Source: Chloroflexota bacterium (GTDB taxonomy: Bacteria > Chloroflexota > Dehalococcoidia > UBA2979). From it: a DNA stretch of 53,168 nucleotides. Positions 1 to 13,091 of this stretch are shown one piece after another (the first letter of the stretch is position 1; the number at the start of each line of letters is the position of its first letter). The position numbers were made by a program, and so were the translations under genes. The DNA is taken from positions 1 through 53,168 of the forward strand of contig VXTU01000085.1 of the NCBI GenBank assembly GCA_009837285.1, read 5' to 3'. Under the pieces are notes generated by a model that saw only the letters and a program-made list of their open reading frames with translations, had not been told where the DNA came from and searched no databases.

Positions 1-295
1 GCCGGCTAACGGCCGGGCGGCGCGAGCCGACGGAAAGTGCCACAGAAACATACCGCCGCCGCGTCCCTCGGGGTGCGGGGGTAAGGGTGAAATGGTGCGG
101 TAAGAGCGCACCGGCGTCCCGGAGACGGGGCGGCCGGGCAAACCCCACCCGGAGCAAGGCCAAATAGGGGAGCGTTCGGGGCGTCCGGCTCCGCTCCCGG
201 GTAGGCCGCTGGAGGCGGCGGGCAACCGTCGTCCTAGATGGATGGCCGTCGCCGCCCCTGGGGCGGTACAGAATTCGGCTTACAGGCCCCCTGGC
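1..295 (+). ncRNA. rnpB: RNase P RNA (class A), 5'-truncated by window edge
   Basis: This is the catalytic RNA of RNase P, which matures tRNA 5' ends. The core landmarks of bacterial type A RNase P RNA appear in order: the AGGGTGAAA-like segment with GGTGCGGTAAGAGCGCACC near 86-113, the CCACCCGGAGCAAGGCCAAA segment near 145-165, the GGGTAGGC segment near 200, the CTAGATGGATG segment near 234-244, and the terminal ACAGAATTCGGCTTACAGG near 268-286. By comparison with the Escherichia coli RNA, roughly the first 100-120 nt (P1 5' strand through about P9) lie before the window. The 3' end is placed by analogy and is uncertain by about 10 nt. Confidence 0.93.
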
Positions 296-364
296 CCCAA
301 CAAAGGTGTGGTACACTCCCCCCAGTCCCTGGTAGGAGTACTGCATACGTGATGAGAGTGCGCC

Positions 365-5888: not shown

Positions 5889-6485
5889 GTGTTCAAGTCC
5901 CCGCGCCGTCGACGTCGGCGTTCGCGCCGAGGGCCGGACGTACGCGGTGCGCGCGGCATGCCCGTCCTCGTCACTCGCGTCAGTGACGGAGACACCGTCG
6001 TCGTTCGCGAGGACCGACGGTTCGCGCAGGAGTTCCGGGTGCGCCTGTACGGCATCGACGCACCGGAAACGAGCCAGCCGTTCGGACGCGAGTCCACTCA
6101 GGCGCTGCAACAGATGGTGCGGTTGCAGGCCCTCGCACTCGACGTGTTCGCCCATGACCGCTACGGGCGCGCGATCGGCCTGCTCTATCCGCGTGGTGGC
6201 GACCAGCGCCAGTCCTTGAACGTCGCGATGGTGCGCGAGGGCTGGGCGTACACGTACCACCGCAACGGCCGCTATAGCCATGGCCTGAACGCAGCCCAAC
6301 GCCAGGCCCAGGATGCGCGCCGGGGCGTCTGGGGCCAGTCCGCCAGTGCCGAGCGCCCATGGGCGTACCGGCGACGGATGAGCGAGAGGGACGGCGGCCT
6401 TGTGTTGCGTCCACGCGCGCTGCTCTGGGGGTTGGCGCTGCTCGCCGTGCTGTACGTCCTCGCTCGCGTAGCCGGAGGCGGGTAG
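5889..6485 (+). CDS. Thermonuclease-family nuclease with C-terminal membrane anchor
   Basis: A staphylococcal-nuclease-like (SNase/TNase) protein of 198 residues. The catalytic pattern is present: Asp in VSDGDTVVV, Arg and Asp/Glu in RLYGIDAPETSQPFG, and the second Arg in HDRYGRAIG, followed by LNVAMVREGWAYTY. The N terminus carries an arginine-rich stretch (PRRRRRRSRRG) and the C terminus a hydrophobic helix (LLWGLALLAVLYVLARVAG) that should anchor it in the membrane; the positive N terminus suggests an unusual orientation or nucleic-acid contact. GTG 5889 lies 2 nt after the birA stop, so the two are one operon. Whether the nuclease faces the cytoplasm or outside cannot be told. Confidence 0.87.
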   Translation: MFKSPRRRRRRSRRGPDVRGARGMPVLVTRVSDGDTVVVREDRRFAQEFRVRLYGIDAPETSQPFGRESTQALQQMVRLQALALDVFAHDRYGRAIGLLYPRGGDQRQSLNVAMVREGWAYTYHRNGRYSHGLNAAQRQAQDARRGVWGQSASAERPWAYRRRMSERDGGLVLRPRALLWGLALLAVLYVLARVAGGG

Positions 6486-6513
6486 GGGTCGCCGCGCGCG
6501 GGGTGGGTCACGC

Positions 6514-6543
6514 TTGACCCTCGGGCGGATGCCCACCTACGCT
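6514..6543 (+). promoter_or_regulatory. Histidine operon promoter
   Basis: TTGACC at 6514-6519 and TACGCT at 6538-6543 with an 18-nt spacer. Predicted transcription start is about 6549-6551, which would place the leader-peptide ATG (6552) at or within a few bases of the mRNA 5' end. Confidence 0.55.
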
Positions 6544-6551
6544 CGATTGCG

Positions 6552-6635
6552 ATGCGAACAAGCGAGGTCCACGGTCGCCATGTCCATATGCATCGGGTCC
6601 ATCGGAACCCGTCGCGGAGCTGCGCGCATCGCTAG
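6552..6635 (+). CDS. hisL: Histidine-rich leader peptide of the his operon
   Basis: A 27-codon ORF with six histidine codons (codons 7, 10, 12, 14, 17 and 26), five of them within 11 codons. It starts MRTSEVHGRH and ends at TAG 6633-6635. It lies between the histidine promoter and a terminator upstream of hisZ, exactly where a classical attenuation peptide would be. When histidyl-tRNA is scarce the ribosome should stall on the clustered His codons and change folding of the RNA downstream. No Shine-Dalgarno is seen; the predicted transcription start suggests (nearly) leaderless translation. The peptide itself probably has no other function. Confidence 0.75.
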   Translation: MRTSEVHGRHVHMHRVHRNPSRSCAHR

Positions 6636-6690
6636 TCGTTCGGCCGATGCCAGTGGCGCGCCGCGACGGGATCCCGTCGCGGCCTTTTTC
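6608..6690 (+). terminator. Transcription attenuator: competing antiterminator and intrinsic terminator
   Basis: Three copies of one 10-nt arm are present: CCCGTCGCGG at 6608-6617 (arm 1), its complement CCGCGACGGG at 6661-6670 (arm 2), and CCCGTCGCGG again at 6673-6682 (arm 3). Arms 2 and 3 form a GC hairpin followed by CCTTTTTCTT, a standard intrinsic terminator. Arm 1 can pair perfectly with arm 2 instead, which prevents the terminator. Arm 1 lies inside the leader ORF just after the His-codon cluster, so ribosome position decides which pairing forms. Confidence 0.8.
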
Positions 6691-6731
6691 TTGCCGCGCC
6701 CACCCCGAACGACGCCACCACGGGACGTGAG

Positions 6732-7751
6732 ATGACCAGCGAACGCACCGACACCGCACTCCGGCACGCGCTGACTGCACCTGCAGCCGAGCTGCGCAGC
6801 CCCGGCATGCATGACCTCGGCCCCGACGAGATGCGCCGCTTCCGCGCGGTCGAGTCGCGCTTCCTCGAGGTCACGGGGCGCGCGGGCTACGACGAGATCC
6901 GCACGCCGACGGTGGAACCGCTGCACCTGTTCACCGGCGCCGGCACGCTCTCGCCACAGATGCTCGACCGCGTCTACTCATTCCTCGACTGGGACGGCTG
7001 GAGCGGCGAGCGTGTCGTGCTGCGGCCCGACAGCACGCTCCCCGCCGTGCGATGGCACGAGGAGCAAGTGAGCGGCCAGACGTCGCGGCTGTGCTACGTG
7101 CAGCCCGTCTACCGGTTCGTACCGGGCGGCGGCCAGCGCGAGCAGTGGCAGTGCGGCGCCGAGCTGTTCGGCCTCGACGCACCCGAAGGTGACGCCGAGC
7201 TGCTGCGGCTGGCCCTCGACCTCCTCGCCGCGCTCGGCGTCGAGGGGGTACGCGTCGACCTCTCGCACACCGGGCTCGTGCGCGCCGCGCTCGGCGCGGC
7301 CGGGCTCGACGCCGCGGCTCAGCTCGCGACGCTCGACCGCCTCCTCGACGGCGATGACGGAGCGATCCAGGAAGTCATCTGGGCGCGGCCCGAGCAGGCC
7401 GGTGCGCTGCGCGTGCTCTTCGAGATCGACGGACACGATGCGGGATACCTCGCGAATCTGCGTGCGGCGCTCGACCCCGTTCCGGGCGCTGCTGCCGCCA
7501 TCGCGGAGCTCGATGCCGCCGCGGGCGTCCTCGGAGCCGCGGGCGCGGAGTTCCGCGTCTCCGCGGCGTCGGTGCGGAACTTCGAGTACTACACGGGCCT
7601 GACGTTCCGCGCGCTCGCCGGGGACGTCGAGTGCCTGCGGGGCGGGCGCTATGACGGCCTCGCCGAGACGATCGGCGGGAGCGCGGTGCCGGCGTCCGGC
7701 TTCGGCGCGGACATCGAGGTGCTCATGGCGCTCGCGGAGGGCGGCGCGTGA
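6732..7751 (+). CDS. hisZ: ATP phosphoribosyltransferase regulatory subunit HisZ
   Basis: HisZ is a catalytically dead histidyl-tRNA synthetase paralogue that assembles with short HisG and is needed for activity and histidine feedback of the first step of histidine synthesis. The 339-residue product has the class II synthetase core: a motif 1 region (FLEVTGRAGYDEIRTPTVEP), motif 2 (VLRPDSTLPAVRW...), a histidine-motif-like FEYYTGLTFRAL and RGGRYDGL. Motif 3 is reduced to GFGADIEVL, lacking the synthetase Arg, and no anticodon-binding domain follows, as expected for HisZ. It starts 49 nt after the terminator hairpin and ends in a TGATG overlap with hisG. Confidence 0.9.
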   Translation: MTSERTDTALRHALTAPAAELRSPGMHDLGPDEMRRFRAVESRFLEVTGRAGYDEIRTPTVEPLHLFTGAGTLSPQMLDRVYSFLDWDGWSGERVVLRPDSTLPAVRWHEEQVSGQTSRLCYVQPVYRFVPGGGQREQWQCGAELFGLDAPEGDAELLRLALDLLAALGVEGVRVDLSHTGLVRAALGAAGLDAAAQLATLDRLLDGDDGAIQEVIWARPEQAGALRVLFEIDGHDAGYLANLRAALDPVPGAAAAIAELDAAAGVLGAAGAEFRVSAASVRNFEYYTGLTFRALAGDVECLRGGRYDGLAETIGGSAVPASGFGADIEVLMALAEGGA

Positions 7752-9223
7752 TGGACGACGGTATCCGCGTCGCGCTCCCGCGGGGCGACCTGCGCGCGCC
7801 GCTGGCCGAACGGCTCGCGGCCGTCGGCTTCGCGCCTGCCGGCTACGGCGAGGGCTCACGGGCGTATCGCTTCAGCGTCGAGGGCCGCCCGCGGGTCGCC
7901 GTGCGCGTGTTCTCCGACGAGGACATCCCGATCCAGATCGCGCTCGGCAACTACGACCTCGGCATCACGAGCCGCTCCTCGATCGACGAGCTGGTGACGC
8001 GCTACGGCCACGACTCGATCGTCGCGTTGCGCGCGCTCGACGTGGGCGAGGCACGCGTCGTGCTGGCGGCGCCGGCCGGGACAACGCTCGATGAGCTGGG
8101 AGCGCGGCGGCCGCTGCGCGTCGCGACCACGTACCCGCACATCACGGCGCAGTACCTGAACTGGCTGCGCGTCCCCGACTATCGGCTCATCGAGGTCTGG
8201 GGCCAGCCACAGGCCTGGCCGCCGGAGGACGCCGACGCGGCCGTACTCGACGTGCCCGCCGGGGACGGCACGCCCGAGGTCCTCGATCGCGAGGGCCTGG
8301 AGGCGATCGCCGAAGTCCACCGCGGCTCCGCGTGGTTGGTCGCGAACCGGCGTGCGCTGGGCGAACAGGACCTGCGCGAGGTGCTCGACGCGCTCCTCGA
8401 GTTGCCCGCGCGCCCACCCGCCGCCGAGGGCGTGCAGTACGGCCCGCTCCGCCCGACGCCGCTCGTGCTCGATCGGCGCTCCGTCGAGGCACGCGTGAAC
8501 GGCTTCGAACGGCAGGACGGCGCGCTCAGGCTCGCGGTGCCCGACGGACACGCGCAGCGCCACACCGTCGAGGCACTCGCCACTGCCGGCATCGCGTTCG
8601 AGGGCTACGACGAGCAACAGGCCGTGCGCCGGCCGCGCTCGGCCATCGAGGGCGTCACCGTGAAGGTGATCCGCCCCCAGGACATGCCGCAGGCGGTCGC
8701 CCTGGGGCGGTTCGACGTAGCGCTGACCGGCCGCGACTGGCTGGCAACACACCTCGCCGCGTTCCCCGGCTCCCCGGTCGTGGAGCTGTGCGACCTGCAC
8801 CGCAGCCGCTACCGCATGGGCGCCGTGGTGTCCGAGGACGTCCCCGCCGAGAACATCGCCGAGGCCGTCGCGTACTGGCGGCGCGACGACCCGGGCCGCT
8901 CTATCCGTGTGGCCTCGGAGTACGTCGAACTGGCCGACCACTACGCGCGTGAGCGGCACCTGGGGCGCTACCGTGTGATCCCGATCGGCGGGGCGTCCGA
9001 GGGCTTTGTGCCGGACGACGCGGAGATCCTGATCGAGGGTTCGGAGACCGGAACCACCCTGCGCGCCAACCGGCTCCGTATGATCGATGTGATCATGGAA
9101 TCGACGAACTGCGCCATCGGCTCTACGGTCCGCCCGCCGGGCGCGCGTGGCGACCTGCGCGACCGGCTGGTGGAGCGGCTGGCGGCCGCCGCGCCTCCGG
9201 ACGACGGCGGCGGGCCGGCGTAG
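7751..9223 (+). CDS. hisG: ATP phosphoribosyltransferase, tandem double-domain HisG
   Basis: HisG joins ATP and PRPP in the first step of histidine synthesis. This 490-residue protein is about twice the length of short HisG and contains two HisG-like domains, residues ~1-215 and ~259-480. The N-terminal half keeps ALPRGDL, DIPIQIALGNYDLGITS and TTYPH (126-130), but its PRPP loop is degenerate (~167-183). The C-terminal half keeps AVPDGH, DMPQAVALGRFDVALTG and a good PRPP loop, SETGTTLRANRL (431-442), but has lost the TYPH-type motif. The halves may cooperate as a built-in pseudodimer. ATG 7751 overlaps the hisZ stop by one base; GTG 7748 is the alternative. Co-expression with HisZ fits short-form regulation. 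Confidence 0.9.
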   Translation: MDDGIRVALPRGDLRAPLAERLAAVGFAPAGYGEGSRAYRFSVEGRPRVAVRVFSDEDIPIQIALGNYDLGITSRSSIDELVTRYGHDSIVALRALDVGEARVVLAAPAGTTLDELGARRPLRVATTYPHITAQYLNWLRVPDYRLIEVWGQPQAWPPEDADAAVLDVPAGDGTPEVLDREGLEAIAEVHRGSAWLVANRRALGEQDLREVLDALLELPARPPAAEGVQYGPLRPTPLVLDRRSVEARVNGFERQDGALRLAVPDGHAQRHTVEALATAGIAFEGYDEQQAVRRPRSAIEGVTVKVIRPQDMPQAVALGRFDVALTGRDWLATHLAAFPGSPVVELCDLHRSRYRMGAVVSEDVPAENIAEAVAYWRRDDPGRSIRVASEYVELADHYARERHLGRYRVIPIGGASEGFVPDDAEILIEGSETGTTLRANRLRMIDVIMESTNCAIGSTVRPPGARGDLRDRLVERLAAAAPPDDGGGPA

Positions 9224-9248: not shown

Positions 9249-10004
9249 ATGCCCTCGCTCGGATCGCACCTGGCCAGCGCCTACGGGCTGGCCACGCGTC
9301 TCGGCTCGCAACACATCGACGCCGACCGTGGCGCGTACTACCTCGGCTCGACCGCGCCCGACATGCGCATCCTGATGCGCGTGGACCGCAAGCTCACACA
9401 CTTCTTCGAGCTCAGCGACTTCGAGCCACAGGACTCGATTGCGCGGATGTTCGAGGCCCACCCGAATCTGGGCGACGCGGTCAGCCTCGACCCCGGCATG
9501 CGGGCGTTCATCGCCGGCTACATGACGCACCTGCTCATGGACGAGCACTACATCCAGAGCGTCTATCGGGCCTTCTTCGGCGAGCGCTCGCCGCTCGGCG
9601 GCGACCTCTGGGCGAACGTGCTGGACCGCTCCCTGCAGTACGAGATGAACCGCCGCGACCTGGAGGACGACGACGCGCTGACCGATGTGCGCAAGGCCAT
9701 CGACGCCTCGCAGTCGGCGGTCGGCCTGCCGTTCATCGACGACGAGCTGTGGCCGGAGTGGCGCGACTTCACGCGCGGCATCACGCACCAGCGCCCGGAC
9801 TTCGAGCGCTACGCGCGCGTCATGCAGATCCACCTCCGCCGCGTCGGCTTCTCCGAGGAACGGATCGAGGAGATCGGCAACGACCCGCCGCAGGTCATCA
9901 ACGAGGCGTTCGAGGCGGTCAGCGAGGAACGCCTGGACCAGTACCTTGAGGAGGCGACCGAGCTCGCCTTTGACCGCCTGCGCGAGTACCTGCCGCCGTC
10001 ATGA
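9249..10004 (+). CDS. Zinc-dependent phospholipase C-like protein within the his operon
   Basis: A 251-residue protein resembling the zinc-dependent phospholipase C fold: MPSLGSHLASAYGLATRL, DRGAYYLGSTAPDMR, a HFF segment and YMTHLLMDEHY supply the His/Asp residues typical of metal sites in this group. There is no signal peptide, so it is probably cytoplasmic. Similar single-domain proteins are often annotated as hydrolases of unknown substrate. It lies 25 nt after hisG with a good Shine-Dalgarno (GAGGAGGAG) and overlaps hisD by 4 nt (ATGA), so it is translated as part of the his operon. No histidine-pathway reaction is known for this family; its role here is open. Confidence 0.72.
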   Translation: MPSLGSHLASAYGLATRLGSQHIDADRGAYYLGSTAPDMRILMRVDRKLTHFFELSDFEPQDSIARMFEAHPNLGDAVSLDPGMRAFIAGYMTHLLMDEHYIQSVYRAFFGERSPLGGDLWANVLDRSLQYEMNRRDLEDDDALTDVRKAIDASQSAVGLPFIDDELWPEWRDFTRGITHQRPDFERYARVMQIHLRRVGFSEERIEEIGNDPPQVINEAFEAVSEERLDQYLEEATELAFDRLREYLPPS

Positions 10005-11347
10005 CCGCCGACGATGCCCTCTCGCTGCGGATCGTCGAGGGCGCCGAGGCTGCTCGCGCGAGCGTGCTGCGCCGCGAGCCCCCGGGGGCGTCCGAACTCC
10101 CGGAGCCCATCCGCGCCTCGATCCGCGACACGTTCGGGGCGGACCTGAGCGCCGAGGAGGTCGTCGCGCGCATCATCGAGGACGTGCGACGCGAGGGCGA
10201 CGCCGCGGTGCGCCGCTACTCGCAGCGCTTCGACGGATCCGCCGACGCGCCGATGGAGGTGGGCCCCGAGGAGTTCGAGGCGGCCTTCGAGGAGGCCGAG
10301 CACGACCTCATCGAGTCGATGCGCTATGCGGCCGAGCGCGTGCGCGTCTTCCACGAGCTGCAGCTCGAGCACGGCCCACGCTCGTTCCTGTACGAGGGAC
10401 TGGGCCAGGAGGTGCTGCCCATCCAGCGCGCCGGGATCTACATGACCGGGAGCGTGGCCGTGCTGCCATCCTCGGTGCTGCACACGGCCATCCCGGGCGT
10501 GGTTGCAGGCGTGCCGGAGCTTGTCGGCGTCACCGCCGCGCGGCCCGACGGCAGTGTGCACCCCCTCAAGCTCGTCGCCGCCTCGATCGCGGGGGTGCAG
10601 CGCGTCTTCCGCGCCTCCGGCGCCCAGGGCATCGCCGCGCTGGCGCTCGGCACCGAGTCGATCCCGCGCGTCGACAAGCTGTTCGGTCCCGGCAACCTCT
10701 TCGTCACGCTCGCCAAGCGCCAGTTGTTCGGCGAAGTGGGCATAGACGCGCTCTACGGCCCGACCGAGACGCTCGTACTTGCCGACGCGGATTCGCCGCC
10801 CGACCTCTGCGCGGCCGACCTGCTGGCGCAGGCCGAGCACGACGTCCTCGCCACGCCTGTGCTCATCACAGCCAGCCTTGAGCTGGCCCAGCACGTCCAG
10901 ATCGCCGTCGAGGAGCAGCTTGCGACCCTCGACCGCGGCGCGATCGCGCGCGCGGCCGTCGAGCGCGGCGGCGCGGCGGTCGTTGAGGACCTCGACGAGG
11001 CCATCGAGCTGGCGAACGAGTTCGCGCCAGAGCACCTCTGCATCCTCACGGCCGACGCCGGCGCGGTCGCCGACCGCATCACGAGCGCGGGCGGCGTCTT
11101 CGTTGGCGAGCACTCGCCCGAGGTGCTCGGCGACTACGTGGCGGGGCCCAGCCATGTGATGCCGACCGGAGGCTCGGCTCGGTACGCCTCACCGCTGTCG
11201 GTGCTCGACTTCCTCAAGGTCACCTCCGTGATCGCGCTCCAGGACGACGCGATCGAGTTCCTCGGCCCGCACGCCGCGCGGCTCGCACGCGCGGAGGGGC
11301 TGACAGGCCACGCCCGCTCGATCGAGCGGCGGCTGGAGGGGCTGTGA
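10001..11347 (+). CDS. hisD: Histidinol dehydrogenase
   Basis: HisD catalyses the last two steps of histidine synthesis, oxidising histidinol to histidine with NAD. At 448 residues it has normal length. The zinc ligands and catalytic base known from the E. coli enzyme have counterparts: Gln and His in AQAEHD, Asp in GDYVAGPSH, His in GLTGHARS, and the catalytic Glu-His in APEHLC. GAQGIAALALGTE and FGPGNLFVTLAKRQ are also typical. Two conserved segments differ from most family members: the PGG(S/T)A loop reads MTGSVAVL and the AGPSE loop reads YGPTE. It starts in a 4-nt overlap with the preceding gene and ends in a TGATG overlap with hisC. Confidence 0.92.
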   Translation: MTADDALSLRIVEGAEAARASVLRREPPGASELPEPIRASIRDTFGADLSAEEVVARIIEDVRREGDAAVRRYSQRFDGSADAPMEVGPEEFEAAFEEAEHDLIESMRYAAERVRVFHELQLEHGPRSFLYEGLGQEVLPIQRAGIYMTGSVAVLPSSVLHTAIPGVVAGVPELVGVTAARPDGSVHPLKLVAASIAGVQRVFRASGAQGIAALALGTESIPRVDKLFGPGNLFVTLAKRQLFGEVGIDALYGPTETLVLADADSPPDLCAADLLAQAEHDVLATPVLITASLELAQHVQIAVEEQLATLDRGAIARAAVERGGAAVVEDLDEAIELANEFAPEHLCILTADAGAVADRITSAGGVFVGEHSPEVLGDYVAGPSHVMPTGGSARYASPLSVLDFLKVTSVIALQDDAIEFLGPHAARLARAEGLTGHARSIERRLEGL

Positions 11348-12495
11348 TGTCCGTGCGCTTCGACTTCGACGCCGCGCTCCGGCCCGCCCTGCGCGGGATG
11401 GACGGCTACGAGCCGATCGAGCCGCCCGAGGAGGCTGCGGCACGCTACGGCGTGGCGCCCGGGGACGTTGTGAAGCTCGACGGCAACGAGAACCCGTACG
11501 GCCCCTCGCCGCGCGCGCGCAAGGCCCTCGCCGGGGGCTACGAGGCGCACCGCTACCCCGACCCCGACCAGCGCCGCCTGCGCGCGGCGCTCGCCGCACG
11601 GCACCACATCCCGGAGTCGAGCATCGTGGCTGGGGCGGGGGCCGACGAGCTGATCGACCTCGTCTTCCGCGTCTTCGTCGACCCGGGCGACCGCGTCGTG
11701 ATCGCCTCGCCGACGTTCGGCATGTACAGCTTCGGCGCGCGCCTCTACGGCGCGACGCTCGTGGACGCACCGCGCGTCGAGGCCGACTGGAGCATCGACT
11801 CCGACGCCCTGGTCGAGGCTGCCGAGGGCGCCAAGGCGGTATTCGTCCCCTCGCCCAACAACCCCACAGGCGGCCTGCTGCCGCCGGACGTGTGTGAGCG
11901 CCTGCTGGCGAGCGGCGCGCTGCTCGTCGTTGACGAGGCGTACATCGAGTTCGCGCACGCCGAGTCACTCGTGCCGCTGGCTGCGGAGGGCGATGCGCCG
12001 CTGATCGTGCTGCGCACGTTCAGCAAGTGGGCGGGCCTTGCGGGGCTGCGCGTCGGCTACGGCGTGATGCCGCGGCCCATCGCAGACGCGTTCATGCAGT
12101 GGAAGCAGCCCTATGGCGTGAACCTCGCAGCCGAGGCCGCTGCCATCGCGTCCACCGAGGACGCAATGCTGCTCGACGAGCGCGCCTGCGAGATCGCCGG
12201 CGAGCGCGGGCGGCTCGAGGCCGGGCTGCGCGACGGCGAATGGCTTGAGCCCGCGCCGTCCGAGGCGAACTTCCTGCTGTGCCGCATGTCGGACCGCCTC
12301 GGCGGCGACGGGGCGGCGCTGCGCGAGGCGCTGGCGCGCCGCGGGGTGTTCGTGCGCTTCTTCAGCGACCCGCGGCTGCACCGCCACGTGCGCATCTCGG
12401 TGGGCATGCCCACCGACACCGACCGCGTGCTCGCCGCCCTCCACGAGGCCGGCCGCGAACTGGAAGGCCCGAATCCTGGAAGGGGGGCTCGATGA
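11347..12495 (+). CDS. hisC: Histidinol-phosphate aminotransferase
   Basis: A PLP-dependent class I/II aminotransferase converting imidazole-acetol phosphate to histidinol phosphate. The 382-residue sequence shows KLDGNENPYGPSP, AGAGADELIDL, PSPNNPTGG, VVDEAYIEF, and the PLP lysine in RTFSKWAGLAGLRVGYG, and ends with the Arg-containing VRISVGMPTD substrate carboxylate/phosphate region. Position between hisD and hisB supports HisC over other family I members. ATG 11347 overlaps the hisD stop by one base (GTG 11344 is an alternative). It overlaps hisB by 4 nt. Confidence 0.93.
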   Translation: MSVRFDFDAALRPALRGMDGYEPIEPPEEAAARYGVAPGDVVKLDGNENPYGPSPRARKALAGGYEAHRYPDPDQRRLRAALAARHHIPESSIVAGAGADELIDLVFRVFVDPGDRVVIASPTFGMYSFGARLYGATLVDAPRVEADWSIDSDALVEAAEGAKAVFVPSPNNPTGGLLPPDVCERLLASGALLVVDEAYIEFAHAESLVPLAAEGDAPLIVLRTFSKWAGLAGLRVGYGVMPRPIADAFMQWKQPYGVNLAAEAAAIASTEDAMLLDERACEIAGERGRLEAGLRDGEWLEPAPSEANFLLCRMSDRLGGDGAALREALARRGVFVRFFSDPRLHRHVRISVGMPTDTDRVLAALHEAGRELEGPNPGRGAR

Positions 12496-13091
12496 GCGAG
12501 CGCCGCGCGACTGTGACACGCGACACGGCGGAGACGCGCATCCACGTCGAGCTCGACGTCGACGGGACGGGCGAGGCGCGCGTCGGCACCGGCGTGGGGT
12601 TCTACGACCACATGCTGGAGGCGTTCGCCAAGCACGGCCGCTTCGACCTGCAACTGACGTGCGAGGGCGACCTGCACGTCGATGAGCACCACACGATGGA
12701 GGACTGCGCGCTGGCGCTGGGCACCGCGTTCGACGAGGCGCTGGGTGACCGCGCCGGCCTCGTGCGCATGGGCGACGCGACCGTGCCGCTCGACGAGGCG
12801 CTCGTGCACGCCGTGGTCGACGTCTCGGGCCGGCCCTACGCGACGGTCGGGCTGACATGGGTCGGCGACCGCGTCGGCGAGGCAACGACGCAGATGCTCA
12901 CCCACGCGCTGCACAGCCTCGCGCAGACCGCGCGCATCACGCTGCACGTCCGCCAGCTCGCGGGCGCCAACGACCACCACATCGCCGAGGCGGCCTTCAA
13001 GGCCATCGCCCGCGCCCTCGACGCCGCGACGCAGCTCGACCCGCGCATCGCGGGCGAGGTGCCGAGCACGAAGGGCACGCTGACGACGTGA
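12492..13091 (+). CDS. hisB: Imidazoleglycerol-phosphate dehydratase
   Basis: Monofunctional HisB (199 residues) that dehydrates imidazole glycerol phosphate using a manganese cluster. The metal-binding motifs are intact: GFYDHMLEAFAKHGRFDL, DEHHTMEDCALALG, and ANDHHIAEAAFKAIARAL; LTHALHSLAQ and the SGRPYATVGL strand are also typical. There is no fused histidinol phosphatase, and a separate hisN-like gene lies downstream. Start ATG 12492 follows GGAAGGGGGG and overlaps the hisC stop (ATGA). The stop overlaps the GTG of the methyltransferase gene. Confidence 0.95.
   Translation: MSERRATVTRDTAETRIHVELDVDGTGEARVGTGVGFYDHMLEAFAKHGRFDLQLTCEGDLHVDEHHTMEDCALALGTAFDEALGDRAGLVRMGDATVPLDEALVHAVVDVSGRPYATVGLTWVGDRVGEATTQMLTHALHSLAQTARITLHVRQLAGANDHHIAEAAFKAIARALDAATQLDPRIAGEVPSTKGTLTT

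Follow-up and report, generated by a model that had tools for sequence, protein, structure and literature searches.

A predicted histidine leader-peptide attenuator, probably leaderless, upstream of hisZGDCB in a family of Dehalococcoidia

The his operon and its upstream region

The analyzed window, a stretch of 53,168 nucleotides, contains a his operon, hisZGDCB, which is preceded by a short His-rich open reading frame (ORF), a promoter, and an intrinsic terminator (Table 1). The first gene of the operon was assigned to hisZ. The models TIGR00443 and PF13393 also fit HisS-like proteins, and the product was considered HisZ rather than HisS because it has 339 amino acids and its gene adjoins hisG; an SD-like GGGA precedes the gene. 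The two HisG halves fused in the second gene share 27% identity (E 1e-13) when aligned to each other, and nearly all of the Dehalococcoidia loci examined likewise have such a tandem after hisZ. The operon also includes an ORF between hisG and hisD, which showed a weak match to the zinc-dependent phospholipase C-like family PF00882, below the cut-off.

Table 1. Positions of the annotated features in the window
Feature	Position	Strand	Sequence or evidence
3' part of class A RNase P RNA	1-298		RF00010; left end of window
Leader promoter	6514-6543	+	-35 TTGACC (6514-6519), 18-nt spacer, -10 TACGCT (6538-6543); sequence, conserved in relatives
Leader peptide ORF, 27 codons	6552-6635	+	MRTSEVHGRHVHMHRVHRNPSRSCAHR, then stop; sequence, no Shine-Dalgarno; homologues before hisZ in 28 family members
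Control His codons 7, 10, 12, 14, 17	6570-6602	+	His cluster conserved 5' of arm 1; CAT bias
Arm 1, 5' antiterminator arm	6608-6617	+	CCCGTCGCGG; within leader ORF codons 19-22 (Asn-Pro-Ser-Arg); covaries with arm 2
Arm 2	6661-6670	+	CCGCGACGGG; pairs with arm 1 (antiterminator) or arm 3 (terminator)
Arm 3, second copy of arm 1, closes terminator	6673-6682	+	CCCGTCGCGG; exact sequence match
Intrinsic terminator and tail	6660-6690	+	Hairpin 6660-6683, 10 bp, 4-nt loop, then CTTTTTC
hisZ, ATP phosphoribosyltransferase regulatory subunit	6732-7751	+	TIGR00443 6.4e-53; PF13393 8.8e-57
hisG, two HisG halves in tandem fusion	7748-9223	+	TIGR00070 2.6e-54, two stretches
ORF with weak PF00882 match	9249-10004		
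hisD	10001-11347	+	TIGR00069 6.7e-133
hisC	11344-12495	+	TIGR01141 5.1e-87
hisB, imidazoleglycerol-phosphate dehydratase	12492-13091	+	NF002116 5.7e-84, from residue 72 of ORF opening at 12279

The leader ORF carries His codons at positions 7, 10, 12, 14, 17, and 26, of which the first is CAC and the other five are CAT. The original prediction, made from the DNA sequence alone, had described an ORF of 27 codons with six His codons, five of them within codons 7 to 17, and this description was correct to the base. It is the sole ORF with five His in 11 codons among the 538 short ORFs (10 to 60 codons) in the window, and at the 2% local frequency of His, a binomial model gives P = 1.5e-6 for five or more His in a stretch of 11 codons. 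The 10-nt arm inside the ORF, its perfect complement, and its second copy were all found at the predicted positions as exact copies or complements. The predicted terminator and its tail are likewise present: a terminator search found one, compared with 0.1 expected in shuffled sequences, and among the five perfect terminators in the window (at least 9 bp plus a T tail), no other has a copy of its 3' arm in the 90 nt upstream.

Conservation of the leader among relatives

The genome (2.4 Mb in 153 contigs) belongs to a family of 44 genomes, and the genomes compared are MAGs. Its nearest named relative among GTDB genomes is SB0661_bin_44, with a HisZ of 93% identity, and the named relatives are Dehalococcoidia/Chloroflexi MAGs, so the distant high-GC lineage of the original prediction can be narrowed to Dehalococcoidia within Chloroflexota. 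HisZ-anchored upstream regions were readable in 35 family genomes, and the His leader element was found before hisZ in 28 of them, covering 14 of 17 genera; the His codons are thus kept across the family. The other seven readable genomes (genera g5, g7, and g9) showed no leader, and the sequences there are AT-rich. Most leaders (24/28) contain four to nine His, for example MNWSVIHATHAHAHAHLYDLPSRARTSR and MRVRTIGTGHEHHGHAHAGHVRPSRALRS, and four (L009, L010, L023, and L049) contain two or three.

The position of the antiterminator arm inside the leader ORF, rather than after its stop, holds in 27 of the 28 homologues. In the exception, L017 (G035:C23), an in-frame TGA directly after the His codons places the stop upstream of arm 1, so that this one relative has the layout of E. 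coli unless the TGA is a sequencing error. Arm 3 is followed by at least four T in 19 homologues, and nine have fewer than four T in the next eight bases. Four members of genus g8 (L013, L014, L015, and L018) have His leaders and strong arm 1:arm 2 pairing but no U-tract terminator.

A covariance model (R1) searched against 393 genomes of the class gave 27 matches at E <1e-6, one per genome, and all of them were hisZ leaders. The matches beyond the training set (L259 and L260) were weak and lay in high-GC protein-coding sequence, and they were rejected as false positives. When 301 genomes drawn from the phylum were searched with R1, only the locus in the window was detected. A search of the 393 class genomes for an HHHAHH codon pattern gave mostly chance-like matches inside long reading frames among the 30 loci examined, and these were also rejected. 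Of nearly 100 HisZ upstream regions scanned in members of the class outside the family, only those of L112 and L115 showed an obvious His leader. These two Dehalococcoidales-like MAGs, whose HisZ proteins are 68% identical to each other, carry a different leader (IIHHHAHHT) about 200 to 360 nt before hisZ, with an SD-like sequence, an HHHAHH run, and arms of quite different sequence; arm 1 (CGGGCTTGG) again lies inside the ORF. The closest HisZ matches of L112 were examined as well, and the 29 upstream regions that could be read showed no relative of its leader.

Covariation of the antiterminator arms

The 28 leaders were aligned with MAFFT (alignment A2) and analyzed for covariation, a check that had been suggested together with the original prediction and that came out in its favor. 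Arm 1 and arm 2 pair in 96.4% of cells, and at most 75% pair when the partners are slid by one to three columns. Ten cells changed on both sides, a number matched by none of 500 shuffles in a test that is not corrected for relatedness. The changes from U-A to C-G occur in several genera, including L006/L008, L009, L017, and L023, and replace Ser with Pro or Leu; a change from C-G to U-A in the genus of L024-L026 replaces Arg with Cys. As the double changes fall in different genera, shared descent is unlikely to be a sufficient explanation, and as several of them alter the peptide yet keep the pairing, selection acts on the RNA. The arm 2 change in L024-L026 keeps the antiterminator pair and loses one terminator pair, and the terminator helix (arm 2:arm 3) covaries weakly. 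Inspection of the leaders encoding Pro-Ser in arm 1 showed that the codons are always CCG (25/25) and TCG (21/21), whereas the corresponding shares in hisZ are 55% (CCG among Pro codons) and 32% (TCG among Ser codons). In this GC-rich DNA, arm pairing is often not significant in a single sequence, and the comparative test alone is decisive.

These data also bear on whether the element is simply the ordinary terminator of the upstream gene next to an ORF that is His-rich by chance. Terminators between genes are common, and the upstream gene ends at 6485; however, the promoter sits between that gene and the terminator, the leader is the only His-dense short ORF in the window, and the layout is conserved across 14 genera. 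As this explanation is also contradicted by the arm 1:arm 2 covariation, we consider it barely credible.

Promoter geometry and predicted start of the leader RNA

A generic sigma-70 scan called no promoter at the leader, although the promoter that had been predicted, TTGACC/TACGCT, is present in the sequence and its two boxes are conserved in the homologues. A TTGNNN/TANNNT pair with a 16- to 18-nt spacer lies directly 5' of 27 of the 28 leaders, and in one the -10 box is CACGCT. The strict pattern has a single match in the whole genome that contains the window. In 26 leaders, 6 to 10 nt separate the last base of the -10 box from the start codon, and in one more the gap is 13 nt; in the window the AUG follows the box by 8 nt. 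The Shine-Dalgarno scan of the leaders was at background in nearly all 28 homologues, the exception being L009, where the 5' end is longer and includes AGGAG.

The usual distance from a -10 box to the transcription start is about 7 nt, which would give the leader a 5' untranslated region of 0 to 4 nt. Because the AUG lies 6 to 10 nt after the -10 box and a Shine-Dalgarno sequence is lacking, the leader mRNA, with its start predicted in this way, is probably leaderless or near-leaderless.

Folding and the proposed attenuation mechanism

The switching states were modeled on the assumption that a ribosome covers about 12 nt downstream of its A site. His codons 7, 10, 12, and 14 lie 38, 29, 23, and 17 nt before arm 1, and these distances exceed the assumed footprint, so a ribosome stalled at any of them is predicted to leave arm 1 free; one stalled at codon 17, which lies 8 nt before arm 1, would not. 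When all sequence up to and including the part covered by a ribosome at His codon 14 was removed, the remaining segment 6605-6692 folded as the antiterminator (-41.4 kcal/mol), which before arm 3 is made has a z score of -3.18. With the ribosome at the stop codon, segment 6649-6692 folded as the terminator (z -3.43), and none of 200 shuffles was as stable. In the homologues, pair probabilities in the stalled state averaged 0.66 for the antiterminator and 0.18 for the terminator, and the terminator pair probability averaged 0.72 with the ribosome at the stop. The equilibrium fold of the whole ribosome-free leader is ambiguous, as L001 favors the antiterminator and L002 the terminator.

The distances and the stalled-state fold agree with the part of the original prediction in which a stalled ribosome frees arm 1. 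The part in which a moving ribosome covers the arm needs refinement: in most homologues, about 16 nt separate the end of arm 1 from the stop codon, so a ribosome parked on the stop would mask it only partly, and we infer that the timing of ribosome passage over arm 1 must matter. A pause hairpin within the His codons before arm 1 was considered as well; it is striking in L003, L021, and L027, but the mean z score against synonymous recoding was only -0.77, and the candidate was rejected.

The locus combines a His-rich ORF before the first gene of the operon, an intrinsic terminator, and a mutually exclusive, covarying antiterminator, which are three of the features that define leader-peptide attenuators as a class; as a fourth, read-through would be predicted to depend on charging of the cognate tRNA and on translation of the leader. 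We therefore propose, with a probability of roughly 0.88, that the leader controls hisZGDCB by ribosome-mediated transcription attenuation. RNA polymerase would start at, or within a few bases of, the leader AUG, and a ribosome would initiate on the leaderless or near-leaderless RNA. When charged tRNA-His is scarce, the ribosome would stall at His codon 7, 10, 12, or 14, leaving arm 1 free to capture arm 2 as it emerges, so that no terminator forms and transcription continues into the his genes. With abundant histidine, the ribosome would run over arm 1 while arms 2 and 3 are made; with arm 1 covered, arm 2 would pair with arm 3 and transcription would end near 6690. The hisL-like logic of the original prediction is in this way supported by conservation, covariation, and folds, and the response to histidine is what it predicts.

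The same His sensor might instead act through another output, either Rho-dependent or translational (re-initiation or sequestration of the hisZ start), at least in the relatives that have no U tract. The nine homologues of this kind fit such an output, as do L013, L014, L015, and L018, in which the arm 2:arm 3 probability is near zero while arm 1:arm 2 pairing is strong; the output step has possibly changed in these members of genus g8. In the window, however, the terminator is strong and has a T5 tract, at least four T are found in 19 of the 28 homologues, and the hairpin ends 43 nt before hisZ, leaving its start uncovered. We regard a different output as unlikely, though it is the most plausible of the alternatives, and transcription attenuation as the preferred reading.

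Codon choice and leaders before ilvB and trpE

CAT makes up 80 of the 147 His codons in the leaders (54%) compared with 7 of 92 in hisZ (8%; Fisher 1.3e-14, a nominal value since the sequences are related). The other leader codons keep a GC3 of 0.83, compared with 0.46 for His, and the CAT bias is therefore specific to His. As a single tRNA isoacceptor normally reads His codons, selective charging of isoacceptors would not explain the bias, and slow decoding or RNA-level constraints would have to. It is through isoacceptors that the selective-charging theory explains codon bias in leaders (PMC1183508).

Leaders were also found before other biosynthetic genes of the family. In nearly all of 30 family loci, ilvB is preceded by Leu/Val leaders ending in LLVLVLT-like runs (including L230/L202 and L198-L227), some of which show a similarly short distance from the -10 box to the AUG. 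GTA accounts for 44 of 91 Val codons in these leaders compared with 97 of 1414 in ilvB. Leaders with W-rich runs, such as WSWWW, precede trpE in about 20 of 30 family loci. The region upstream of trpE in the genome that contains the window (L229 1480-2129, minus strand, G000:C53; see also L183, L185, and L191) contains a T-box-like element (RF00230, E 1.2e-8; 45 bits, below the Rfam gathering score of 93), followed by GGGTGGCACCGCGAG and a terminator. After this element comes an ORF that starts with GTG, contains three consecutive Trp codons, and ends in a stop codon overlapping the start of trpE. The region is a possible double sensor of charged tRNA-Trp, in a layout that we take to resemble B. 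subtilis rtpA. It is about an even bet that the family uses leaderless or near-leaderless His and branched-chain attenuators, together with Trp leaders, and that rare synonyms (CAT for His and GTA for Val) serve deliberately as the sensing codons.

Comparison with known regulators

We searched positions 6450-6760 for known RNA families. The His_leader family (RF00514) gave no match at the gathering threshold or at E values up to 5, and no T-box (RF00230) was found there. A T-box or another ligand- or protein-binding riboregulator, to which the ORF would be incidental, has some background in its favor, as a T-box-like element is present before trpE in the same genome and his genes of other phyla are under T-box control (PMC9413887). 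However, no Rfam match above chance was obtained in this region by the same search that finds RF00230 before trpE, only about 140 nt separate the start from the terminator, and the conserved feature is the His codons and not an aptamer. We consider such a riboregulator very improbable here, and the comparison below is made for the proposed leader-peptide attenuator.

On the basis of these searches, the element would work like hisL without belonging to the Rfam His_leader family as modeled. The hisL leader has 16 codons with seven consecutive His, and its helices B:C/D:E compete with E:F (PMC4046918). The Chloroflexota element shares with E. coli and Salmonella hisL (RF00514) a His-rich leader ORF, competing antiterminator and terminator, a his operon downstream, and the same predicted switching logic. 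It differs in that the His codons are spaced (HxHxH) and CAT-biased, whereas hisL has a His run; in its single antiterminator helix with the 5' arm inside the ORF, in place of the A-F series; and in the lack of a Shine-Dalgarno sequence, with the AUG close to the -10 box.

Leader-peptide attenuation was first thought to be confined to Proteobacteria and Actinobacteria and was later described in Firmicutes (PMC2965389, PMC9413887), and a survey that included Chloroflexi found amino-acid attenuators to be essentially gammaproteobacterial (PMC3766115). The Firmicutes His leaders, which precede hisZ and hisS* or his operons (PMC2965389; PMC9413887), likewise have a terminator/antiterminator pair outside Proteobacteria; besides belonging to another phylum, they have three to five consecutive His codons directly 5' of the attenuator structures (PMC9413887), and no account of them as leaderless was found in the literature searched. 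An attenuator RNA that begins at the leader AUG is known from the leaderless trp attenuator rnTrpL/peTrpL of Sinorhizobium meliloti (PMC7298713), which differs in its amino acid (Trp), its 14 codons, and its alphaproteobacterial host; here, the predicted leaderless geometry concerns His and part of the ilvB leaders. The actinobacterial trp, ilvB, and cys leader attenuators (PMC1262725) are comparable in that several amino-acid operons of a high-GC lineage are controlled by leader peptides, and the same study detected nothing conserved upstream of his operons. PMC4833913 cites a 2015 conference paper on Actinobacteria. No earlier account of a Chloroflexota His leader was found in the literature searched, and Lopatovskaya et al. 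2010, represented there by its citation in PMC4833913, may contain some.

One family of Chloroflexota thus seems to use leader peptides for three pathways. As these leaders cover three pathways with a different architecture, they argue for repeated invention of this type of control. The predicted leaderless start raises the question of whether it alters the coupling of ribosome and polymerase, and the codon bias raises the question of why CAU would be preferred although both His codons are normally served by one tRNA.
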